Of a DNA stretch of 64,000 nucleotides, positions 4,745 to 32,644 are shown one piece after another. Source of the stretch: an uncultured Saprospiraceae bacterium. Lineage in GTDB: Bacteria; Bacteroidota; Bacteroidia; Chitinophagales; Saprospiraceae. The stretch spans positions 1 through 64,000 of the forward strand of contig CALLPN010000043.1 in NCBI GenBank assembly GCA_938015435.1, read 5' to 3'. The notes under the pieces were generated by a model. It saw only the letters and a program-made list of their open reading frames with translations, did not search any database and was not told where the DNA came from. The translations under genes and the position numbers were made by a program. Within the stretch, counting starts at the first letter, position 1, and each line of letters opens with the position of its first letter.

Positions 4745-6028
4745 TTAGACTATCTCAGGGTAAAGAGAATAATTTTCCATCCTCTTGTTGATTTTTGATT
4801 TTATGTCAGCGATGTAGGTATCATTATCTATATGCGTCAATACACCATCTATCCATTCTACTATATCTGTACAATCGGCTTCGTTCATACCTCTACTTGT
4901 GATTGCAGCAGTTCCGATTCTGATTCCAGATGTTACAAAAGGACTTCGAGTATCGTAAGGCACCATATTTTTATTGATTGTAATATCAGCTTTGATGAGA
5001 GCGTTTTCGGCATCACGACCGGTTACGTCGCCTTTAGATCTGAGATCAATTAGCATCAGATGATTATCTGTGCCACCGGAAATTACCTTATAAGATTTAT
5101 CTACAAATGCCTGGGCCATTACTTGAGCATTTTTCATTACTTGCTTTCCATATATTTTGAAGTCATCAGATAGCGCTTCGCCGAATGCTACAGCTTTGGC
5201 TGCGATAACATGCTCAAGTGGTCCACCTTGCATCCCAGGAAATACACCACTATTCAATATTGATGACATCTTGATAGGTGTACCTTTTTTAGTAGTACGC
5301 CCCCATGGATTTACAAAGTCTTTCCCCATCATAATTATTCCTCCTCTAGGTCCTCTAAGCGTCTTATGAGTAGTGGAGCTAATGATATGACAATGTGGTA
5401 CAGGATCATTAAGTAGACCCTTAGCAATCATCCCAGCTGGATGTGCTATATCGGCAAGTAATAGTGCACCTACTTCATCCGCTATGGCTCGGAATTGTGC
5501 ATAATCCCAATCTCTAGAGTATGCAGAGGCTCCACAGATAATTAATTTAGGTTGATGCTCTCTTGCTTGTGCTGCTACCTTTTCCATGTCTATCAAACCA
5601 GAATCTTCTTCTACACCGTAGAATACAGGATTGTAAACCTTACCTGAAAAATTCACCGGAGATCCATGAGATAAATGGCCACCATGAGATAAATCGAACC
5701 CTAGAATTGTATCACCTGGTTGCAGCACTGCTAAGAAGATAGCTGCATTTGCCTGAGCGCCAGAGTGGGGTTGTACATTGGCATATTCTGCTCCAAACAA
5801 TTCACATAATCTATTAATGGCTATTGACTCCACCTTATCAACTACTTCACATCCTCCATAGTATCTTTTTCCAGGATAGCCTTCCGCGTATTTATTTGTA
5901 AGGCAGGTACCCATGGTTGTCATTACTTGATAGCTTGTAAAGTTTTCAGACGCTATTAGTTCTACGCCTTCTCTTTGTCTGTGTAACTCTTGATTGATCA
6001 GATTACTGATAATTGGATCGTTGATCAT
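4745..6028 (-). CDS. glyA: Serine hydroxymethyltransferase
   Basis: GlyA is a PLP enzyme that interconverts serine and glycine while loading tetrahydrofolate with a one-carbon unit. The 427-aa product has the normal family length. The PLP-lysine motif [12 protein letters not shown] is present, and so are the N-terminal [10 protein letters not shown] and [15 protein letters not shown] signatures. The start ATG at 6028 gives the usual short N-terminal helix. It converges on truA with a shared terminator and appears monocistronic. Confidence 0.97.
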
Positions 6029-6171
6029 GTTAGTATCTCTAGTTTATAATTGTTGATTATGTTCTCGTCAAAGTACTTTGCAATAATATGACTTTCGTGT
6101 ATATATAAGCTATGTAATCGAGGGAAAGTTTTTAGAGCTGTGAGGTTTTTGGAAAGCGCTAGCTAAAAAAA

Positions 6172-6201
6172 AGCCCTGTATCAAATTAATGATACAGGGC
6201 T
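6172..6201 (-). terminator. Terminator of the OmpA-repeat gene
   Basis: An 11-bp perfect stem (AGCCCTGTATC / GATACAGGGCT) with an 8-nt loop is followed on the minus strand by a run of T residues (the A-run at 6165-6172 on the plus strand). Confidence 0.85.
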
Positions 6202-6237
6202 CAATATGATTTAAAGTCTTAGTAGACTAATAATATC

Positions 6238-9200
6238 TTATTGTACTCCAAGAGCTCTTAAAGTTTCCACGTCTAACTGACCTACTGGAAGTCCGTTATC
6301 TTTTTGGAATTTAACTAAAGCGTTCTTAGTAGCAGTTCCGATTCTTCCATCAGCACCTGCAGATCCAACATTGTATCCTCTGCTGATAAGAGCAGATTGA
6401 ACTCTTCTGTAAAGATCTGGAGTGATGTCAGCATCACAAACAACTTCTTTCCATTCAGTAAATCCACCTGCTTTTACTAACTGTCTCTTAGTTACAGTTT
6501 TGTATTGAGCGTCTACAGCGATAGAGTTCGTTGTAGGAGCGATTACTTTTTGGTAAGATCTGTTTTCATACTTAGCTTCTATTGCTGAAGAGTTAGTAGT
6601 AGCAGGACTTGCCAATTTCTTGTAAGTTCTGTTCGTGTACTTAGCTTCGATAGAGTTACTAGTAGTAGTAGCTGGGCTAGCTAACTTCTGGAATGTTCTG
6701 TTTTCGTATCTAGCAGGCACATCTACAGATGTAGTAGTAGCTGGGCTAGATAGTTTTTGATAAGTACGTGTTGTGTACTGAGCGTCACCAGTTGACTGGT
6801 TTGCAGCAGCATCAGTTACTAATCTTTGGTAAGATCTAGTAGTGTACTTCTTACAATCTCCGTTTCCAGCATTTGCATTAGGTACAGTACTTCCTCCAGA
6901 AGAAACTAATTCTACTCTTCTGTTAGTAGCCCTTCCTGATGCAGTGTTGTTATCAGCGATTGGAGAAGCTTCACCTCTACCTTCGTAAGATAATCTTGAA
7001 GCGTTAACTCCAGCAGCAACTAGTGCATCATATACAGCTTTCGCTCTGTTTCTAGATAGTGATTGGTTAGCATCAGCTCCACCTTGGCTATCTGTGTGTC
7101 CTACTATTCTTGCAGACATAGCAGCATCGCTACTCATCATCGCTGATACTCTTGAGATCTCAGAAGATGATCCTCCAGTTAAGATCGCTGATCCTGATTG
7201 GAAGTTTACGTTAAGAGTAGTAGCATTACGACTACCACTTCCGCTTGCACAATCTCTTGCTTCGCTAGATGCGTCAGAAACTAATTTCTGGTAAGTTCTT
7301 GTTGTGTATTTAGCATCACCAGTTGTAGCGTTTGCTTGAGCACCGTTAGCTAATTGTTGGTATGTTCTAGTTGTGTACTGAGGTCCTCCATATACAGGCT
7401 CTGTAGTAGCATCGTTTACTAATTTCTGCATAGTTACTGTTGTGTAAGATGCATCTCCAGTTGTTGCTTCTGATGTTGCATCTGATGCAAGCTTCTGGTA
7501 TGTTCTGTTAGTATAAGTAGCGTCACCAGTAGTTACGTTAGCAGATGCTACGTTTGCTACTTTTTGGTAAGATCTAGTTGTATACTTAGCAGGTACTTCT
7601 ACTACTTCAGTAGTTGCAGGAGTAACTAACTTTTGGAACGTTCTATTTTCATATCTAGCAGGAACAGTTACTGACTCAGACGTAGCAGGAGTAACTAATT
7701 TCTTGTAAGATCTAGTTTCATATTTAGCAGGTACTTCTACAGCTTCAGTAGTTGCAGGTGTTACAAGCTTCTTGTAAGATCTAGTTGTATATTCAGCTGG
7801 TACAGTTACTGATGTAGTACTTGCTGGAGTAACTAATTTCTTGTAAGATCTAGTTGTGTACTTAGCAGGTACTTCTACAGTTGTAGATGTAGCTGGAGTA
7901 ACTAATTTCTTGTAAGATCTAGTTTCATATTTAGCAGGTACAGTAGTAGATGTTGTAGTTGCAGGTGTTACTAACTTTCTGTAAGAGATAGTTTCGTAAG
8001 TTGCAGGTACAGTAGTAGATGTTGTAGTTGCTGGAGTAACTAGTTTCTTGTAAGATCTAGTTGTGTACTTAGCAGGTACCTCTACAGTATTAGTAGTAGC
8101 TGGGCTAGCTAATTTCTTGTAAGATCTGTTAGTGTATTTAGCATCGATATCGTTTGACATTGTTGTCGCATCAGAAACTAACTTCTGGTAAGTTCTGTTT
8201 TCATATCTAGCAGGAACTTCTACTACTTCAGTTGTAGCATCAGAAACTAACTTTTGGTAAGTTCTAGTTTTGTACGTTGCAGGTACTTCGATAGTTTTGA
8301 TACACTCACCATTGTCAGTGTAACCATCATCACATCCTACTCTTACTTGCTTAGTTACAGTTCTGAACTGTGCAGGAGTCTCAACGAGACACCAAACTAA
8401 ACAATCGTTAGGATCTGCAGATAAACAGTTTCTATCCGCTTTTTTCTTAACCCACTTGCTTGAAGCTGGCTGAGTTTCGATTTGCTCAGATTGAGTTTCG
8501 AATTTAGCTGGTCTAGTTTCTATTCTTGTAGTAGCTTCTCTTACTAATACTTGCTCTGAGATAGTCTCATATTGAGCAGGTACAGTTCTGATCGTAGTAT
8601 AAGCATCTTGTACTAATACTTGCTCAGTTACAGTCTCGTAAGTAGCAGGCTTAGTAGATAGTGACGTACTTGCTTCTTTAACTAATACTTGCTCTGACAT
8701 TGTTTCGAATGTTGCAGGTATTACAGATAAAGTTGTGTAAGCATCTTTAGTCATTACTTGCTCAGATACAGTTTCATATACAGCAGGTACAGTCTTAAGT
8801 ACTGTGTAAGAGTCTTTCTTAAGTTTTTGCTCAGATACAGTTTCGTATACAGCAGGTACTTTAGATAGAGTAGTGTAAGCATCTTTAGCTAATACTTGCT
8901 CAGATACAGTTTCGTATACAGCAGGTACTGCTCTTAATTCAGTATAAGCCGCTTTAACTAATACTTGCTCAGATACAGTTTCGTATGTAGCAGGTACAAC
9001 TCTTAGCGTAGAGTAAGCATCTTTTTTAAGTACTTCCTCAGTAACAGTTTCATATGTTGCAGGTACTGCCCTTAAAGTAGTGTAAGCATCTTTAACTAAT
9101 ACTTGCTCAGATACAGTTTCGTATACAGCAGGTACAGCTCTCAACTGCTCATATGCTTCAGCAACTAATACTTGCTCAGTTACAGTTTCGAATGATGCAG

Positions 9201-10482
9201 GTACAACTCTTAAAGTAGTATAAGCATCTTTTGATAATACTTGCTCAGATACTGTCTCCATTTGTGCAGGAGAGATAGATACGCTAGACGCACCTTCAGC
9301 AGTTAATACTTGCTCAGTCATAGTTTCGAATGATGCAGGTATAACTCTTACAGATGAAGCACCTTCAGCAGATAACATTTGCTGAGAAGCAGTTTCAAAC
9401 TGTGCAGGTCTTACTCTGATATCGATGATAGAATTAGGATCAGCACAATCAGGAGCAGCAGCTACAGTACCTCCGTAAGAGATAAGTTCTACTCTTCTGT
9501 TAGTTGCTCTTCCAGATGCTGTATTGTTATCAGCAATAGGAGAAGACTCTCCCATACCATCATAGCTTAGACAAGAAGCTGATACTCCTGATGCAACTAA
9601 TGCATCATAAACAGCTTTTGCTCTATTTCTTGATAAATTTCTGTTAGCATCTTCAGCACCTTGGCTATCAGTGTGACCTACTATCTTTGCAGTAGCTCCA
9701 CTTGCACAGTCAAGCGTTCCCGCTAATCTTGCAATTTCTGAACTAGATCCACCTGTAAGAACGGCTGATCCAGAGTTGAAATTAACGTTTAGGAAAGAAG
9801 AGTTTCCCCCAGATGAACCACAGATAGCACCGTGAGTGCTTACCATTACTTGCTCAGACATTGTTTCGAATGTCGCTGGTGAAATACTAATTCTAGACTC
9901 TCCTTCAGATGCTAATACTTGCTCAGATACAGTTTCGAATCTTGCTGGTATAATAGCAAGATCAGATTCTCCATCGCTAGTAAGTACTTGCTCAGATGCA
10001 GTTTCGAATTGTGCAGGAGTAACGCTCACTGACGATGCACCTTCCGCAGACAGTACTTGCTCCGAAATAGTCTCGAATTGTGCAGGTACTACTCTTAGTT
10101 CAGTGTAACCGTCTTGAGCTAATACTTGCTCAGTTACAGTTTCATATTGAGCAGGTACAACATTTAATGTTGATCCTCCTTCTTTTGAAAGTACTTGCTC
10201 AGTCATTGTTTCGAACTGTGCAGGCACCACAGAAAGTACGCTTCCGCCTTCCTTAGATAGAACTTGCTCGGTTACGTTCTCGTATTGAGCAGGTACAACT
10301 TCTACCCTTGTTGTTGCATCTTTAACTAGTACTTGCTCAGTGACAGTCTCGTATTGATCCTGAATTAAACACTTTGCGTAGCACTTACCCGGTACAGAAG
10401 GCATACCTGCCTCTGGTTGAGCGTAAGTTACAAATGCAGCCATAAGGAGAAGTAGAGTACAGATTAAGTTCAGTTTTCTCAT
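6238..10482 (-). CDS. Giant repeat protein with two OmpA-C domains and a peptidoglycan-binding domain
   Basis: The 1,414-aa protein starts MRKLNLICTLLLLMAAFVTYAQ, a clear Sec signal peptide. An upstream ATG at 10593 would add 37 non-signal residues and overlap the next gene, so it is rejected. The mature protein opens with a Cys pair (GKCYAKC). It then has about 44 imperfect 22-23-residue repeats of the form VPAxYETVSEQVLxKDAxTxL. Two OmpA-C peptidoglycan-binding domains are embedded at roughly residues 230-335 and 1090-1190 (GHTDSQG, LSRNRAKAVYDALV, GRATNRRVEL). A PG_binding_1 domain ends the protein at about 1346-1414. Repeats in the first half are acidic (SEQVL); those in the second half are basic (TRSYKKLVTPATT). 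A Cys-rich insert near residues 675-735 marks the switch. It is probably a periplasmic or cell-envelope scaffold; its partner is unknown. Confidence 0.85.
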   Translation of the reverse strand: MRKLNLICTLLLLMAAFVTYAQPEAGMPSVPGKCYAKCLIQDQYETVTEQVLVKDATTRVEVVPAQYENVTEQVLSKEGGSVLSVVPAQFETMTEQVLSKEGGSTLNVVPAQYETVTEQVLAQDGYTELRVVPAQFETISEQVLSAEGASSVSVTPAQFETASEQVLTSDGESDLAIIPARFETVSEQVLASEGESRISISPATFETMSEQVMVSTHGAICGSSGGNSSFLNVNFNSGSAVLTGGSSSEIARLAGTLDCASGATAKIVGHTDSQGAEDANRNLSRNRAKAVYDALVASGVSASCLSYDGMGESSPIADNNTASGRATNRRVELISYGGTVAAAPDCADPNSIIDIRVRPAQFETASQQMLSAEGASSVRVIPASFETMTEQVLTAEGASSVSISPAQMETVSEQVLSKDAYTTLRVVPASFETVTEQVLVAEAYEQLRAVPAVYETVSEQVLVKDAYTTLRAVPATYETVTEEVLKKDAYSTLRVVPATYETVSEQVLVKAAYTELRAVPAVYETVSEQVLAKDAYTTLSKVPAVYETVSEQKLKKDSYTVLKTVPAVYETVSEQVMTKDAYTTLSVIPATFETMSEQVLVKEASTSLSTKPATYETVTEQVLVQDAYTTIRTVPAQYETISEQVLVREATTRIETRPAKFETQSEQIETQPASSKWVKKKADRNCLSADPNDCLVWCLVETPAQFRTVTKQVRVGCDDGYTDNGECIKTIEVPATYKTRTYQKLVSDATTEVVEVPARYENRTYQKLVSDATTMSNDIDAKYTNRSYKKLASPATTNTVEVPAKYTTRSYKKLVTPATTTSTTVPATYETISYRKLVTPATTTSTTVPAKYETRSYKKLVTPATSTTVEVPAKYTTRSYKKLVTPASTTSVTVPAEYTTRSYKKLVTPATTEAVEVPAKYETRSYKKLVTPATSESVTVPARYENRTFQKLVTPATTEVVEVPAKYTTRSYQKVANVASANVTTGDATYTNRTYQKLASDATSEATTGDASYTTVTMQKLVNDATTEPVYGGPQYTTRTYQQLANGAQANATTGDAKYTTRTYQKLVSDASSEARDCASGSGSRNATTLNVNFQSGSAILTGGSSSEISRVSAMMSSDAAMSARIVGHTDSQGGADANQSLSRNRAKAVYDALVAAGVNASRLSYEGRGEASPIADNNTASGRATNRRVELVSSGGSTVPNANAGNGDCKKYTTRSYQRLVTDAAANQSTGDAQYTTRTYQKLSSPATTTSVDVPARYENRTFQKLASPATTTSNSIEAKYTNRTYKKLASPATTNSSAIEAKYENRSYQKVIAPTTNSIAVDAQYKTVTKRQLVKAGGFTEWKEVVCDADITPDLYRRVQSALISRGYNVGSAGADGRIGTATKNALVKFQKDNGLPVGQLDVETLRALGVQ
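6470..10365 (-). repeat. About 44 coding repeats with a period near 66-69 bp
   Basis: The DNA encodes tandem 22-23-residue units in four blocks: 8 before the first OmpA domain, about 15 acidic-type and 15 basic-type between the two OmpA domains, and 6 after the second. Neighbouring units are similar at DNA level (recurring TACTTGCTCAGATACAGT on the plus strand), which suggests growth by unequal recombination. The repeats also create open antisense frames that are not genes. Confidence 0.85.
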
Positions 10483-10565
10483 GGTTGATTTAAATTTGAT
10501 GAATAAATGATTTTTATGAATATAATTCCTAATAAAATAAATATACAAGCTTTGTTGATCCGGCC

Positions 10566-11780
10566 TTATGCCAAGATCGATTTCGGAGTGCAAATATAGT
10601 GTTTAACTATAGATTTACTGCTAATGCTGTAATCCGAAATTTCTTCTAATGGATATATTTCACCATTTTTCATAAGAATGAGAATCTTTTCCTTATCCTT
10701 ATTGTATGTCTGATTCGATTCACTCCCAGTTAAAACTAAGAAATCTAGATCAGATTGGCTAAATCCATGATTATTCAATAATTGAGACCTCATATTTACT
10801 ATGATTTCTTCGTCTATCGTTTCATTCTGCAAATATACCTTAAATAAGGCTCTATTTAGAATAGAAGCGGATAAAAATTGTAGGACTTTATCGTCGCTGT
10901 TGCCCTGTATTTTAAGGGTGTAGACCACATCTGTGTCATCGACTCTACAAAAGCTTTCGATTATCTCCTTAGTTATTCTCGAATTGACGTTTTTACTCAG
11001 CTCAAGTAACTCTTTTAATGGTTGTGATATATGCTCAACTTTTCCCTTATTAAACTCCTGTTTTAGCTTCTTCATAAATGAAATAAGCATCTGCTCTGCC
11101 GCTATGCCAGTCTTATGTAAATACACTTGCCAATACATGAATCTACGAGCTACGAGAAATTTTTCAATTGAGTATATTCCTTTTTCCTCTATTACCAAAC
11201 GATTATCTCTAACGTCAAGCATAGATATAATGCGGTCATAACTTACAGCACCTTCTGCCACTCCAGTGAAGAAACTATCTCTATTGAGATAATCTAGCCT
11301 GTCCATATCGATCTGACCACTGATAAGCTCATGCAGAAATGGCTTACTATATTGACCTTTGAAAATTTCAATCCCTAAACTAAGCTTCCCATCAAATTCT
11401 GAATTAAGTGCTTCCATTATAGCTAGTGACATCTCCTCATGGTGGAAAGGAAGAATAATATGTTCCAAGGCATGTGAAAAAGGTCCGTGACCTACATCAT
11501 GCAGAAGTATAGCTAAACATACACCTTCAAATTCCTCATCACTAATTTCTATATTCTTTGATCTCAATGTATTAACAGCCTCACATGTAAGATGTAATGC
11601 TCCTAAGGCATGGTGGAATCTAGTATGCATTGCACCTGGATACACTAAATGGGAAAGACCTTGTTGTGATATACGACGAAGTCGTTGAAAGAACGGATGC
11701 TCAATGATATCATAAAGAATTTCAAACGGAAATGTGATAAATCCGTAGATAGGGTCATTAAAAAGTTTCTTTTTACTCAA
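10566..11780 (-). CDS. HD-domain phosphohydrolase
   Basis: The 404-aa protein belongs to the HD superfamily of metal-dependent phosphohydrolases (SAMHD1/dGTPase-like, YpgQ-type in bacteria). The metal ligands are visible as TRFHHALGALHL, ILLHDVGHGPFSHALEH and a later DMDRLDYLNRD. The N-terminal YGFITFPFEILYDIIEHPFF and FQRLRRISQQGL are also typical of the family. A nucleotide substrate is likely but not shown by sequence alone. The gene is divergent from porX and lies just upstream of the giant OmpA gene in the same direction. Confidence 0.85.
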   Translation of the reverse strand: MSKKKLFNDPIYGFITFPFEILYDIIEHPFFQRLRRISQQGLSHLVYPGAMHTRFHHALGALHLTCEAVNTLRSKNIEISDEEFEGVCLAILLHDVGHGPFSHALEHIILPFHHEEMSLAIMEALNSEFDGKLSLGIEIFKGQYSKPFLHELISGQIDMDRLDYLNRDSFFTGVAEGAVSYDRIISMLDVRDNRLVIEEKGIYSIEKFLVARRFMYWQVYLHKTGIAAEQMLISFMKKLKQEFNKGKVEHISQPLKELLELSKNVNSRITKEIIESFCRVDDTDVVYTLKIQGNSDDKVLQFLSASILNRALFKVYLQNETIDEEIIVNMRSQLLNNHGFSQSDLDFLVLTGSESNQTYNKDKEKILILMKNGEIYPLEEISDYSISSKSIVKHYICTPKSILA

Positions 11781-21309: not shown

Positions 21310-21607
21310 AGGTTACTGGTATTTTGCTGTAGGTTTATCGTTGTATGATAAATGATAATTTATTGTTTCTGAATTGTACTTCGAGGGTATCAAATTTGAA
21401 TGTAGATGAAATTGAAGACTCCTAATTCTGCTAGTTGTTCACCACCATATATAATGTTCTTGATTTGGCAGAATAGCCTCAGTTCTTGGAATGTAAGAGT
21501 AATCGCAGATAGAGTAGAGTCCTTCGGTTTGTATCTCAGTTGTGTTACGTTAGTAAGTGAGTAACTTGGCGGAGGTAGTTTAATTGATACGAACAAAGGT
21601 AAAAGCG

Positions 21608-21641
21608 AAAAGCCTTCAAATCTTTCGAAATGAAGGCTTTT
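21608..21641 (-). terminator. Ancestral terminator of tRNA-Asp, now displaced
   Basis: A perfect 11-bp stem (AAAAGCCTTCA / TGAAGGCTTTT) with a 12-nt loop directly abuts the displaced tRNA 3'-end fragment. On the minus strand it is followed by a T-rich run. Its place suggests that it terminated tRNA-Asp before the island inserted. Confidence 0.65.
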
Positions 21642-21654
21642 GCGGTCTGGACGG
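21639..21654. repeat. Distal attachment site: copy of the tRNA-Asp 3' end
   Basis: TTTGCGGTCTGGACGG is identical to 32567-32582, where it covers the last 12 bases of the intact tRNA-Asp plus 4 flanking bases. This is the direct repeat expected of site-specific integration into a tRNA gene. Confidence 0.85.
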
Positions 21655-22938: not shown

Positions 22939-23649
22939 TTATTGTATGTCTTTAAGTGCTTTATCAGTAAGCATTTCTTGAAAAATATTATTGATCTCAG
23001 TACTTGAGTTTAACATAGATTCCTTTAAAGGAAAGTAGGATTTCAAAGTTTGCTTTGCTCCTATTCTATTTGAGGAGATTACTAAATCAACAATACAGCT
23101 TTCTATTGATTTTTGATCTATTTTCACAATGTACTTAACCTGATCTAAAATCTTTGTGAAATTTACATTAACGCTACCTTTTTCATAAAAAGAAAATTCT
23201 TTCTCTTCAATTTCTGGAACAAACTTTAAATAGTCCGTCATTTTAACATCTTTCTCAAAATTGAATCTGTTCGCTTTTGTTAGAGAAAAATTAAGAACTT
23301 CTAATTCTCCTTTAGTTTTAAAAAGTTTATCCGTAAAGAAGCTGATTTCTTCGAAAAAACTATTTAAGCTGACATAGTTACCCACTTTTCTCATTACCAA
23401 ACTAGTACTAGTAATTTCAATAATACATCCAGTACTTTCGTTTTGGATTTTAAAACCAATTGTATTTTTGACTTGAGGCGTACTATTAAAACTTACTGTT
23501 AACGTATTATAAGAACTCACATTGTTATAACCTCTCATAGGGTCTATTGAAAAATCCTTCAATTGTATAACGCTATTTTCATTTAGAGGTTTAACGAAAT
23601 TGAGAGATACAATTACTTCAAAGACTTTATTGTTCTGGAATTGTGTCAA
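22939..23649 (-). CDS. Cassette protein 1, weakly TIGR04255-like
   Basis: The 236-aa product is the first gene of the three-gene cassette. Its layout resembles the sporadic TIGR04255 family: an N-terminal beta-rich half, a central strand pair near LNFSLTKANRFNF where that family has its conserved R-Y-x-N-R strand, and a C-terminal helix (STEINNIFQEMLTDKAL) like the family's final helix. Similarity is by eye and weak, so this is inference only. Its promoter region would lie in the iteron-bearing gap upstream. Confidence 0.68.
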   Translation of the reverse strand: MTQFQNNKVFEVIVSLNFVKPLNENSVIQLKDFSIDPMRGYNNVSSYNTLTVSFNSTPQVKNTIGFKIQNESTGCIIEITSTSLVMRKVGNYVSLNSFFEEISFFTDKLFKTKGELEVLNFSLTKANRFNFEKDVKMTDYLKFVPEIEEKEFSFYEKGSVNVNFTKILDQVKYIVKIDQKSIESCIVDLVISSNRIGAKQTLKSYFPLKESMLNSSTEINNIFQEMLTDKALKDIQ

Positions 23650-24037
23650 TTAATTGGTTTTAGCATTACAAAAGTGCTTATAGGCTCTATATTACAGGTA
23701 ATATACTATAAAAGTTGCAAAAGTATTAAACTTTTCTTTTATACCTATTATTTCATCAACCATTACTGGCAGATAGAGATGTCCTTACGTTACTAACGTA
23801 TAAAGGGTAAAACGAATTGTACATTCCCAAAATATAACTATTTGTGAATCAGTTGTTTAGAATTTATTGGGAAAAACGAATTGTACATGTTCCTTTAAAG
23901 AATTTTGATCAGACGGTGAGTTATTGTGTTGAATGTCAGTGTGTTGTGACATGTACAGTTCGTTTTTCCAAAAGTGCACATTTCGTTTTTCCGATTATAG
24001 ACAGTGAAATACAATGATATCGGATATTTGCAGAACG
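23650..24037. repeat. Non-coding gap with four iteron-like repeats
   Basis: Four copies of a ~19-bp motif close to GGAAAAACGAATTGTACAT lie here. Two are on the plus strand (23805-23828, 23869-23893) and two on the minus strand (23951-23969, 23974-23992). The two halves face each other around an AT-rich centre. The gap lies between the cassette operon and the CoiA-like gene and contains no credible ORF. It could be a replication origin or a regulator-binding region. Confidence 0.7.
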
Positions 24038-26029: not shown

Positions 26030-26590
26030 CTATCCTGGTGTATTTTTATCTGCCACAGCAGGAGCATTCTTAGTAGCTAAATTTCCTAGTAAAGTAGTTA
26101 CACCCATCATTATAGCTGGTGCATTTGCTTCAAATATTCCCGCAATTGTTCCCCCTATACTCTTATTCTTTTCAACTTGAATATCTAATTTTTCAATGAG
26201 GGCTTCTTGTTCAGCAACTTTCTTTTCGGCAATTGCGAGATCACGTTCTACAAACATGAGTTGTATTTCCAATTTTGATCTGTCTGATTTTATGTCTCCA
26301 GATAAGTCCTTTTCTGACAGCAAATGGTTTAGTACCTCTTGATTCGTATTAGCTCCATTTAGCATTCGTTGTATATTTGCGTTATTCATCGCAAAAGGAG
26401 CAGAGGCGTTTCGACGGTTATGACTACTAATGACCCCTAGAGCTGCCTGTTCTGACTGCCCTGTCGCTGTGTAGGGGATGGCTTTACGTGCTAGATAAGC
26501 ATCGTTTTTACATGTCTTACTACAGTATTTGGAGTCTCTCCTTGTCGCTTCATATGTTGATGCGCAGTACTCACATTCTTTCTCTATCAT
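26030..26590 (-). CDS. Zinc-finger protein with coiled coil
   Basis: The 186-aa product from the ATG at 26590 opens with a compact treble-clef-like finger, ECEYCASTYEATRRDSKYCS followed by KTCKN, seen in many phage and island proteins. The middle is a charged coiled coil (about residues 80-140). The C-terminus is a Gly/Ala-rich hydrophobic stretch (GTIAGIFEANAPAIMMGV) that could insert in a membrane or oligomerise. Earlier ATGs at 26656 and 26623 add only unremarkable residues. It sits beside the TGASTCA array. Confidence 0.65.
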   Translation of the reverse strand: MIEKECEYCASTYEATRRDSKYCSKTCKNDAYLARKAIPYTATGQSEQAALGVISSHNRRNASAPFAMNNANIQRMLNGANTNQEVLNHLLSEKDLSGDIKSDRSKLEIQLMFVERDLAIAEKKVAEQEALIEKLDIQVEKNKSIGGTIAGIFEANAPAIMMGVTTLLGNLATKNAPAVADKNTPG

Positions 26591-26740
26591 AATATTGTTT
26601 TTATCAAATGTAATAGACGTCATTGGATCAGTCAAGTAATTTAGGGGTGCGCACAAGAGATACTAACTATTACTAGAAACTAATTGTGTGACGGCTAGCT
26701 AAAGGTCAGATAAGATTCACTGAAAATATATCTCTAAAAG

Positions 26741-26940
26741 TGGCTGACTCACGTGACTCACTGTCTCAAATCGTTGTAAAGTGTTGATAGTCAATAGATA
26801 TTTAAAAATTAGTGAGTCAGAGGTGAGTCAGAGGTCTGAGACAGATGAGTCAGAGGTGAGTCACTTAGGTTTTGGTACCTCTGACTCACTTTAATTTACT
26901 GTTAGTCAACGTTTTAACTATAGTTGAGTCACGTGAGTCA
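26741..26940. repeat. TGASTCA iteron array
   Basis: Nine copies of TGASTCA (S = C or G) fall within 196 bases, at 26745, 26754, 26813, 26824, 26846, 26857, 26882, 26925 and 26934. Outer pairs (26745-26760 and 26925-26940) are perfect 16-bp inverted copies of each other, each holding two units 9 bases apart. Inner pairs are spaced 11 bases (GTGAGTCAGAG units). The right end overlaps the last codons and stop of the primase gene. Confidence 0.85.
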
Positions 26941-29060
26941 CTAATTATGTCTACAAAAAGTTTTTTTAGATAATATCCCTTACGTCTTACTTTCATTTTG
27001 ATTCCTTTGGAGTTTTCTCGCTTGTATCCAAGATGGGTAAGCGCTCTACCTATCATTTGTCGGCGAAGCTTAAGATTTGGATATTCTCTAGTAAGGTCAT
27101 TTTCTATATCTGTGGTGGTATAGAAATTCTTCGCATCTTTATCTGGATCTAGTTCATAGTGTTCGTTCACTAGATCAAGCTCTGTAAAACTTACTATGTG
27201 TTCTTTATTGTTGTCTTCTGATTCTCTGACTTCATTTACACTCAATAGATATTTATACCCTGTGTTAAGTAGGTGTATTGCCTGTGAGTATACCAAGTCA
27301 ATATCTATGTTCTGGTTATATCCTTTGGAGCCACCGTTATCATGTATGATCCTGATTACTTCGAATATCAACCAACGAACATTACCAGTCGAATCTGTAA
27401 GGATCTCTTCATCGTTAGTACTAGCGAAAAAATTGGCAATTCGGTTAATCTTTACTGGCTTAGTACCAAATGGCAATCTCTCTTTTATATTCTCAGTACT
27501 TATAAGGGCTTTGATTTTGTTTCTATCATGATACGATATCGTTGCGATCTCATCAAGGTTTATAAATACGTTTTGAGCTAGTGAGATCCTACCATCTTTA
27601 TCAAGACTCATGTTTTCTGTGTAATAGTCTTTTAGTGTAAGTGGGCATAAGAATCTAATGAAGCTAGTTTTACCATCATTTTGATTTCCAATGATGGTAA
27701 AGCAATGCTTATTGAATGGTATTCTGCCTAGTGAGCAAGCCAAAGACCTCACTAGCATTTTTTTAAATTGAACATTAAACCACCTTTGCTTTTTAGCTTC
27801 TACAAAACCTGCCAATTGTTCAATGTAGTCTGGTTTTGTTTCATCCCAATCAGGAAGACCATCCAAGTAATCTTTAAGTGGGTTGAATGTTCTGATTAGA
27901 CTACTATTAAGTATTGCTTTCAATACTCTGTCTACAGACTTAAAATTGGCTTCCATCAACTCACAGATAATATCGTTTTCGTTAAGCACTCCCCAGAATG
28001 GTTTACCGTTTTCTTTTACTTCGATATCAAGTGAAATCTCATTACGTTTGAACGTGTATTTGTTAAATAGGTATTCTTTGATTTGTACGTATTGATTGTT
28101 CTTAGTGATCTTTTCATTTTCCTCTTTTTCATCACTCTTTTGGATATCTGATAATTGAAACGATTCTCCCAGATGCATTTTTGCATATTTCAATATCTGA
28201 GGATCATCATATCTCTTAGTTGTACTTTTAATATTTCGATTAACGGTACTTACTATTTCACTTTCTGTAAACGATGGCTCTGCAAGAGGTTTGCAATACG
28301 TGTGAATATGTAGAGAAGACAATCCATACTCAGTAGCTAGCTTGGTGTATTGCATCACAAAATTATTCCTACCTGAGATCCTACGCTTATCTAATACCTG
28401 TATTATTATTTCATGCTTATCATCATCACTGATAATGATGGTGCTGGCCGTAGAAATATATGTTTCCTTATTTTCATTTTTTTGTATATCTACTTCAACA
28501 TGATATACTCTAGATATTTCATTGATATAGATCTCATAACGATCTACAGCAGCATAATACCAAAGCCTAGAAGCATTCTTAGTGCTAGGATCTAGCTTAG
28601 CCCTGCCTAGCTCTATCAAGTCACTTAGGTCGTCCGCTATGGCCTTGTAATACGCTTTGTGTGTGTCGATAGTTGAATCAGTAAATACCAATATCCTAAT
28701 ACCATGTCCTGATACAGATGGGAAGGCAGCAAATACAAAATCTATTTTCTGCAGTACCTGTAATAGTGATACTAGATCTTCATAATTAGCTATCCCATCT
28801 ATATCAAATCCCATGCAAGGCGAGTACCTTATACATCCTGAGTCTTTCCGTTCTGAAAATTCACCAAACACTGCCCCCGGCAATTGTTTTTTGAGCTTGT
28901 CATATTGGATCTTATCCGTAGAATATAATCTCCTGAGCTGAGGATCATATTCATCATGCTTACTTACTAGATCTATGAAATATTGTAAGTCTCTGACTAT
29001 TGGTTTCTTTGTGTTAGTTATCTTATCAAAAAAGCTAACAGGTGTTTTTAGTCTATTCAT
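26886..29060 (-). CDS. Primase-helicase (BT4734-like N-domain plus VapE/SF3-type ATPase)
   Basis: The 724-aa replication protein has an N-terminal BT4734/VirE-N-like domain (about residues 45-190; MGFDIDGI, VSGHGIRILV, SRLWYYAAVD). A linker with PriCT-like helices follows. The C-terminal helicase domain has Walker A GNQNDGKTSF (about 455), Walker B INLDEIATI and sensor FFASTNDEEIL. This resembles the replication initiators of VapE-type islands and satellites. Its start overlaps the upstream stop (TAATG), so translation is coupled. The stop codon lies inside a TGASTCA unit, which puts a candidate origin at the gene's 3' edge. Confidence 0.88.
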   Translation of the reverse strand: MNRLKTPVSFFDKITNTKKPIVRDLQYFIDLVSKHDEYDPQLRRLYSTDKIQYDKLKKQLPGAVFGEFSERKDSGCIRYSPCMGFDIDGIANYEDLVSLLQVLQKIDFVFAAFPSVSGHGIRILVFTDSTIDTHKAYYKAIADDLSDLIELGRAKLDPSTKNASRLWYYAAVDRYEIYINEISRVYHVEVDIQKNENKETYISTASTIIISDDDKHEIIIQVLDKRRISGRNNFVMQYTKLATEYGLSSLHIHTYCKPLAEPSFTESEIVSTVNRNIKSTTKRYDDPQILKYAKMHLGESFQLSDIQKSDEKEENEKITKNNQYVQIKEYLFNKYTFKRNEISLDIEVKENGKPFWGVLNENDIICELMEANFKSVDRVLKAILNSSLIRTFNPLKDYLDGLPDWDETKPDYIEQLAGFVEAKKQRWFNVQFKKMLVRSLACSLGRIPFNKHCFTIIGNQNDGKTSFIRFLCPLTLKDYYTENMSLDKDGRISLAQNVFINLDEIATISYHDRNKIKALISTENIKERLPFGTKPVKINRIANFFASTNDEEILTDSTGNVRWLIFEVIRIIHDNGGSKGYNQNIDIDLVYSQAIHLLNTGYKYLLSVNEVRESEDNNKEHIVSFTELDLVNEHYELDPDKDAKNFYTTTDIENDLTREYPNLKLRRQMIGRALTHLGYKRENSKGIKMKVRRKGYYLKKLFVDIISDSRDSTIVKTLTNSKLK

Positions 29061-31184: not shown

Positions 31185-32405
31185 TCACCAATTTACGTTG
31201 TCTAATCCTTCAGATATCATCTTTTCATTAAGATGCACATATTTCATAGTAGTTGATATTTTACTGTGCTGCATAAGTGCTTGTAGTATATGATGAGGAA
31301 TTCTATTCGCCATATATGTACCAAATGTATGCCTACCTACATGCGTAGTCAATACTTTGTTTAATACAGCTCTTTTGCCTATTATTTTGAGCTGCTTATT
31401 GCTTGCCTGATTCGTCACGTTCCCAAAGATAGGCTTTGATCTGTATTGTTGACCATATAAGTCTTTCAATAACTTTTCGTAGCGTAGTATCATGCTATTA
31501 GGCTTAGATATTCCAGTATCATCTATAAAGAGTTTTGATATAGGGACGGTAATATACTTACTCGTTTTATTGGATCTAGTACGTAGGTAATATTCACCGT
31601 CTTTCTTATCGAACATGCTCAAAGTAAGTTCCTTATTACTTTCATTTCTTAGCGCAGTCCAGCAGCTAAATAGAAAAGCATCTCTGTAGATCTCCAGATA
31701 CATCTCCTCCGGTTTGAATTTTAGATCCTCTATCTTCTTTACTTCCTCCATAGTAAGGTAAGTTCTAGGTTTAGCCTGCCCATGCTTTACTTTGAATTTC
31801 AGATATGGATTACCATTTGGTAGCGTTACATCTTTGCGTAAAGCTTGATTGATAAAGTACTTGATATTCTTGTGATTCTTAGCTCTCGATGTTGCTCCTA
31901 CACTTTTCATAGCTAGATATCCTTCAAAACCCTCTATCGTTCTGAATGTGAGATCTGAGAAGTATAATTGACTCTTATATTCCTTGAGATGCGATAGGGT
32001 AGTGTTATAGGTGACTATTGTGCTTTTGGCCTTAGTTCTTTTGCTAATTTCTATTTCGGATTCCACGAACTCAAAGAACGAGTTATAATTAGATCCTGCA
32101 TCCCTTTCGAGATCTTCGAGCTCACATCGCCCTAATCGATTCATGATCGTCATAGCTTTCTCCTGGTACTGTTGCATCAGTTTCAGTAGTCTGATATTAT
32201 ACCTGGCTTCTAGCTCATGATTGATTACACGATTATTGGAGCTATCCCATTGCTCTGGAGATACATAGATCTCAGTAGATATGTATTTGTGTTTAGTATT
32301 GCGCTTAGAGTTGGGCTTATATGCTACCAGTTGTATCACAGCTTCGCCATGTTTATTGAGTTTGCGCTTCTTGTTATGTACAAGAGAAAATCTTATTGGT
32401 TTCAT
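31185..32405 (-). CDS. Tyrosine site-specific integrase
   Basis: The 406-aa protein has an arm-type DNA-binding N-domain (residues 1-90), a SAM-like core-binding domain (about 105-200) and a catalytic domain. The catalytic residues appear as TALRNES (first Arg, about 248), HVGRHTF (His-x-x-Arg, about 355) and QHSKISTTMKYVHL (His and the nucleophile Tyr near 388). It lies 166 bases from the 3' end of the intact tRNA-Asp and reads away from it, as expected for a tRNA-targeting integrase. Confidence 0.95.
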   Translation of the reverse strand: MKPIRFSLVHNKKRKLNKHGEAVIQLVAYKPNSKRNTKHKYISTEIYVSPEQWDSSNNRVINHELEARYNIRLLKLMQQYQEKAMTIMNRLGRCELEDLERDAGSNYNSFFEFVESEIEISKRTKAKSTIVTYNTTLSHLKEYKSQLYFSDLTFRTIEGFEGYLAMKSVGATSRAKNHKNIKYFINQALRKDVTLPNGNPYLKFKVKHGQAKPRTYLTMEEVKKIEDLKFKPEEMYLEIYRDAFLFSCWTALRNESNKELTLSMFDKKDGEYYLRTRSNKTSKYITVPISKLFIDDTGISKPNSMILRYEKLLKDLYGQQYRSKPIFGNVTNQASNKQLKIIGKRAVLNKVLTTHVGRHTFGTYMANRIPHHILQALMQHSKISTTMKYVHLNEKMISEGLDNVNW

Positions 32406-32533: not shown

Positions 32534-32569
32534 AAAGAGGAAAAAGCAAACTATTGCTTTCTCCTCTTT
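32534..32569 (-). terminator. Island-supplied terminator of tRNA-Asp
   Basis: A 15-bp stem (32534-32548 with 32555-32569) has one position that pairs as G-U only in the minus-strand RNA, fitting transcription from the tRNA. The loop is 6 nt. Confidence 0.7.
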
Positions 32570-32582
32570 GCGGTCTGGACGG
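32567..32582. repeat. Proximal attachment site in the tRNA-Asp 3' end
   Basis: It is identical over 16 bp to 21639-21654 and covers the acceptor-stem 3' strand of the tRNA. The integrase gene and this site are on the same side, so the tRNA remains intact after integration. Confidence 0.85.
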
Positions 32583-32644
32583 GACTCGAACCCGCGACCC
32601 CCTGCGTGACAGGCAGGTATTCTAACCAGCTGAACTACCAGACC
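32571..32644 (-). tRNA. tRNA-Asp (GUC)
   Basis: The 74-base cloverleaf has acceptor stem GGTCTGG/CCAGACC, D-arm GTTCAGCTGGTTAGA, and anticodon stem-loop CTGCCTGTCACGCAG with anticodon GTC at 32608-32610 (complement). The T-arm is GCGGGTTCGAGTCCCGT. CCA is not encoded. It is the integration site of the island. Confidence 0.97.

Follow-up and report, generated by a model that had tools for sequence, protein, structure and literature searches.

A candidate replication origin of short iterons behind the primase-helicase gene of a Saprospiraceae integrative island

Directly behind a primase-helicase gene of an uncultured Saprospiraceae bacterium lies a dense cluster of the heptamer TGASTCA, and the question raised by this locus is what such a cluster does. 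Across the whole stretch of DNA analysed (the window; 64,000 nucleotides, contig CALLPN010000043.1), the heptamer occurs 13 times against 10 expected, which is no overall excess, and nine of these copies fall within 196 bases. The original prediction, made from the sequence letters alone, described a nine-copy array at 26741-26940 and suggested that a mobile island might start its replication there. The array is real: exact units begin at 26745, 26754, 26813, 26824, 26846, 26857, 26882, 26925 and 26934, giving a maximum of nine per 200 bp, while 200 dinucleotide shuffles of the window never gave more than two. The proposed function also finds support, and it is probable (roughly 85%) that replication of a 10.9-kb island starts at this array, with SaPI-like iterons that would be read by the C-terminal domain of the helicase and folded by an IHF-type protein. 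The support comes from the mapped ends and empty site of the island, the homology of its helicase to SaPI initiator helicases, and the presence of arrays in most relatives.

The array is carried by an integrative element of 10.9 kb situated in a tRNA-Asp gene. The left end (attL, 21639-21654, plus strand) duplicates 16 bp of the 3' end of tRNA-Asp, TTTGCGGTCTGGACGG, and is an exact direct repeat of the 16-bp core at 32567-32582 (attR, plus strand), found at the 3' end of the tRNA gene (32570-32644, minus strand). In a congener (genome G002, locus L131), sequence matching the flank 21592-21654 stands directly behind tRNA-Asp; this is an empty site, and the 10.9 kb between the repeats is therefore an insertion. 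The island contains a tyrosine integrase beside the tRNA (31185-32405, minus strand; Pfam Phage_integrase, Arm-DNA-bind_5 and SAM_5), the primase-helicase, a zinc-finger-like protein and several further products that match nothing. In another locus (L038), a tRNA-Asp gene likewise adjoins an integrase homologue. An integrase with att sites and a size within about 8-15 kb agree with phage satellites of the PICI, SaPI or P4 kind. However, no packaging or capsid-takeover gene was recognised in the island with Pfam, PHROGs, NCBIfam or PADLOC, most island proteins matching nothing, and the label of phage satellite would thus exceed the evidence. Among the cargo, a gene at 22939-23649 belongs to the TIGR04255 family (above the NCBIfam cut-off) and is the first of three co-directional genes, the others without matches, that are possibly a defence or accessory operon. 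A second small array lies upstream of this operon, which starts at 23649; it spans 23805-23997 and comprises four repeats of about 20 bp, GGGAAAAACGAATTGTACAT, two per orientation, that are unrelated in sequence to the iterons and operator-like in look.

Since the integrase has an arm-DNA-binding domain, and att regions also contain IHF sites, the array might be thought to supply arm-type or accessory sites for integrase or excisionase. It lies, however, about 5 kb from either att site, and its constant neighbour in the relatives described below is the helicase (99 loci), an integrase homologue being found in 21 loci, so that such a role is extremely improbable.

The proposed origin extends over 26744-26941 (no strand assigned), and the span originally noted is correct to within a few bases. 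Two one-mismatch units, CTGTCTCA(R), recognised by a motif model at 26836-26844 and 26761-26769, raise the total to 11 units, whose consensus is CTGACTCAC. Read along the helicase strand, they form a pair 9 bp apart, then 43 bp, a single inverted unit, 25 bp, five units, 51 bp, and three inverted units. The first module, the pair, lies within the primase coding tail (26924-26941, minus strand) and is followed by a left spacer of 34 bp with 76% A+T (26890-26923). The single inverted unit (26881-26889, plus strand) holds the helicase stop codon, the TGA of unit 26882-26888 being that codon (26886-26888, minus strand). The central run of five units, one of them with a mismatch, occupies 26812-26864 on the minus strand; beyond it are a right spacer of 42 bp with 79% A+T, a candidate unwinding region (26770-26811), and the closing inverted units, two exact and one with a mismatch (26744-26769, plus strand). 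The geometry claimed at the outset is borne out in each respect: the outer pairs of 16 bp (26745-26760 and 26925-26940) match each other exactly as reverse complements, with their units at 9-bp spacing, inner units stand 11 bp apart at 26813/26824 and 26846/26857, and the stop codon of the primase-helicase lies inside the array. The helicase gene ends with codons that contain the first unit pair and left spacer, and the tail they encode is mostly absent from aligned relatives. The reading frame extends about 20 codons into the origin (26886-26944), and this tail is predicted to be disordered, with low model confidence.

Short and nearly palindromic, TGASTCA could be bound by a host regulator, and a cluster of sites for a host transcription factor might be incidental to replication. 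Yet the paired pattern has no other occurrence in the 4.9-Mb genome, on which ground a host regulator was set aside, and relatives of the same family have other sequences at the same place; there is scarcely any likelihood left to this explanation.

The gene in front of the array (26886-29060, minus strand) encodes the proposed initiator, a primase-helicase with Pfam matches to BT4734-like_N and VapE-like and a predicted C-terminal winged helix at about residues 636-702. A profile search of PDB sequences found 7pds, which we take to be SaPI1 Rep, as the only solved relative (E 1.3e-23). An AlphaFold2 model of the protein (mean pLDDT 90) again matched 7pds by Foldseek (E 4e-16), and this entry (PriRep1 with dsDNA) was the best structural match, with Z 24.5, rmsd 5.2 and 376 aligned residues over 313-706, the next family reaching Z 15.4; the SaPI5 Rep entries 7ola and 7om0 appear in the same match list. 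The alignment to 7pds reaches residue 706, and the predicted winged helix consists in the model of helices 649-659 and 667-676 and strands 682-685 and 692-700, with pLDDT mostly above 90. Profile and model comparison together class the protein as an initiator of the SaPI-Rep type, with a winged helix in its C-terminal part. The structure comparison barely tests the N-terminal domain, and the primase assignment accordingly rests on Pfam and on an NCBIfam match below cut-off. BT4734 is a recognised archaeo-eukaryotic primase family, and the VirE/VapE ATPases are predicted helicases of mobile elements (PMC5862659).

If the array is an origin that belongs with this helicase, related elements should be informative. 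With the window protein as the sole query, no relative was found in genome or viral contigs; with an alignment (A1) as the query, relatives were recovered from both. A discovery set was drawn from 198 related genomes, GTDB contigs and IMG/VR contigs, and a hold-out set was collected later from two wider genome draws. The TGASTCA array is present in none of these relatives. This had the look of a refutation before arrays with other units turned up: close relatives mostly have an array of their own directly behind the helicase, with units such as GTAGTAA, TAAGCCA, CGAGTAA, GTAGACA, GTCACCA, TGGAACA, ATGTAAC and others. Defined as at least five copies of one 7-mer in the 300 bp behind the helicase stop, a cluster was found in 43 of 71 discovery loci versus 16 of 2078 other windows of the same loci (p 2e-57), and in 15 of 45 hold-out loci versus 6 of 467 control windows (p 5e-13). 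The 7-mer methods found no clear array in about a third of discovery loci and in a larger share of hold-out loci. Among cultured phages, Flavobacterium phages lotta8-1 (TGGAACA, seven copies) and FPSV-S1 (GTGTAAC, nine copies) have the array behind the helicase; in Cellulophaga phages phi17:1 and phi18:1 it is weaker, with four copies, and phi12:1 and phi3:1 have none there. Related islands that share the primase and lack any such array had been named as evidence against an origin; most relatives do carry one at this place, in a different unit sequence. Dense 7-mer clusters were also seen away from the helicase, namely CCGTAGC (ten copies) in L110 at about 11141-11345, ACCCTCC (eight) in L053 at about 10420-10597 and AATTGCA (nine) in L047 at about 1645-1803.

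The association with the helicase also bears on a centromere-like partition site or a copy-control (incompatibility) site, with the element replicating from elsewhere. Plasmid iteron clusters also act in partition and copy control. However, Pfam, PHROGs and NCBIfam revealed no ParA/ParB-like gene in the island, and in islands and phages alike the array keeps its position relative to the helicase; we consider this reading very unlikely.

The arrangement of the units is shared more often than their sequence. When oriented unit positions were compared with those of the window, with gap and orientation shuffles as the null, 17 of the 50 loci with other unit sequences agreed with the window layout at p<=0.05, where 2.5 were expected. 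The most coinciding units, eight, were found in L028, despite its different unit sequence. The recurrent module is a pair, 41-48 bp, an inverted single unit, 20-25 bp, and two or three units (hold-out loci L139, L153, L166, L170 and L177, with a single unit in place of the pair in L177). In outline, the arrangement that is often retained runs from a pair over about 43 bp to one inverted unit, and over about 24 bp to a triple and an inverted pair. In some loci, most of them viral contigs whose units are ATGTAAC or TGGAACA, the order of the module is mirrored. The expectation that unit spacing would be conserved in homologous islands thus holds in part: spacing is often kept, but a significant match to the window is confined to a third of loci.

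The spacers between facing units share a further feature. Aligned by position, they reveal a common element, GTTTAA..TTGA..ATCAR....TTA, that contains WATCARNNNNTTR, the IHF consensus of E. coli. An earlier observation that spacers share TTGANNNTCA (in fourfold excess) was superseded when this alignment showed TTGANNNTCA to be part of the IHF-like consensus. Exact matches to the E. coli consensus number 26 in 50 arrays, compared with 1.6 expected from shuffles (largest 5), and 39 of 54 facing-unit spacers have an IHF site at no more than one mismatch. The rate of the consensus in arrays is 8.7-fold that in flanking DNA, as against 1.5-2.0 for variants with a one-base change in the inner gap and at most 3.6 for scrambled words. 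The IHF hypothesis arose on the discovery set and held in the hold-out, with 13 matches versus 2.4 (300 shuffles, largest 9); the cultured phages examined have no exact match. In the window, the right spacer has an exact match, TATCAACACTTTA, at 26777-26789 on the minus strand, and the left spacer has no exact match, with degenerate IHF-like sites (one mismatch) at 26892-26904 on the minus strand and 26904-26916 on the plus strand. The host genome has two genes of the IHF/HU family (PF00216). The putative spacer-binding protein would be IHF-like, as opposed to a bender of another kind.

If the helicase reads the units, then its DNA-binding part should change with them. In the discovery set, the distance between unit sequences tracked the distance between C-terminal domains (residues 636-702) once the ATPase was controlled for (partial r 0.30, p<0.0005, none of 2000 permutations as high), and the reverse test of the ATPase with the C-terminal domain held constant gave a partial r of -0.12. 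In 30-residue windows the signal was seen only in 610-714 and not in equally variable N-terminal helicase windows. These are Mantel tests, which shared ancestry can inflate. In the hold-out (17 loci), the correlation was present for the C-terminal domain (r 0.25, p 0.016) and also for the ATPase (r 0.22, p 0.017), with a non-significant partial test (p 0.14), and for this reason the sequence comparisons support, and do not settle, that the unit sequence follows the C-terminal winged helix rather than the ATPase core.

This covariation is relevant to the most serious alternative, in which the array is an operator through which an island or host regulator controls the zinc-finger gene together with those that follow. 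The array is just upstream of that gene (26030-26656, minus strand; PHROG and tblastn matches), whose coding start is about 90 bp downstream; mobile elements commonly carry repeated operators, and initiators often autoregulate too. Nevertheless, the gene behind the array varies, being a homologue of orf25397 in L028 and L029, a VRR-NUC nuclease in phages and a primase in L058, and the helicase in front is constant. The unit sequence also appears to follow the helicase C-terminal domain, and an array of eleven units, grouped to face one another across IHF-like bends, goes beyond an ordinary operator; we consider this alternative unlikely. Homologues of the zinc-finger-like protein were found in three related islands, with variable adjacency to the array; in L028 and L029 (about 5759-7231), the zinc-finger and orf25397 homologues lie behind the array in swapped order, and the integrases are 41-45% identical. 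In L058 (about 7206-7530) and L027, a gene of its own behind the array encodes the primase domain, and the candidate origin there lies between helicase and primase genes.

Taken as an origin, the array would work as follows. The winged helix of the helicase would bind the CTGACTCAC units, and an IHF/HU-type host protein would bend both A+T-rich spacers (34 and 42 bp), drawing together the units that face each other across each. Helicase rings could then form at the groups of units and melt an A+T-rich spacer, after which the N-terminal BT4734-type primase domain would prime. It is proposed that, because only the winged helix must match the units, these two change together between elements as the layout and the bends stay.

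An iteron origin beside a self-loading initiator helicase is already a known kind. SaPI Rep is described as binding, through its C-terminal domain, iterons directly downstream of its own gene, and the isolated C-terminal domain of SCCmec Cch2 as binding repeats downstream of its operon (PMC7581432). The window island resembles SaPI replicons in its homologous helicase (7pds), the predicted C-terminal winged helix, the short-repeat array directly behind the helicase gene and its integrative nature; it differs in its Bacteroidota host, in the fusion of a BT4734-type primase to the helicase and in having no recognisable packaging genes. The window array also has facing unit groups and IHF-type spacer sites, of which the text consulted makes no mention for staphylococcal origins. 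Cch2 and its putative origin share the initiator helicase with downstream repeats, but Cch2, which has the unit AAGTG and a polymerase-primase pair apart from the helicase, belongs to the SaPI5-Rep/D5-related branch, and SCCmec uses a cassette recombinase whereas the window island uses a tyrosine integrase. The alpha protein of phage P4 is a primase-helicase fusion that recognises iterons of its own element (ori/crr); unlike in the window, the P4 origin parts lie apart and the helicase and primase belong to other families. The pSC101 and R6K origins likewise combine iterons with an IHF bend beside an A+T-rich region, but their Rep_3-type initiators load the host helicase and are not self-loading helicases.

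In the literature searched, nothing relevant was found on VapE with iterons or on Bacteroidota satellites with such origins, nor was a fixed layout with free unit sequence and IHF-type spacers found across the islands and phages of one phylum; most subscription journals lay outside this search, which makes it weak evidence of novelty. The broader reading, to which we give even odds, is that Bacteroidota islands and phages share one origin type, with a fixed architecture behind a VapE-type helicase, in which groups of units face each other across IHF-bent spacers, and a drifting recognition word with which the winged helix keeps register. If so, each element would own a private origin code, readable from sequence, and many could replicate in one cell without cross-reaction. 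With this array, a large set of phages and islands in Bacteroidota, in which the replication gene otherwise bears no annotation but 'virulence-associated protein E', would gain a concrete origin, and dozens of natural pairs of helicase domain and unit would form a data set on how initiators change DNA specificity. The array may also serve as a practical handle for finding origins and building self-replicating vectors in these hosts.
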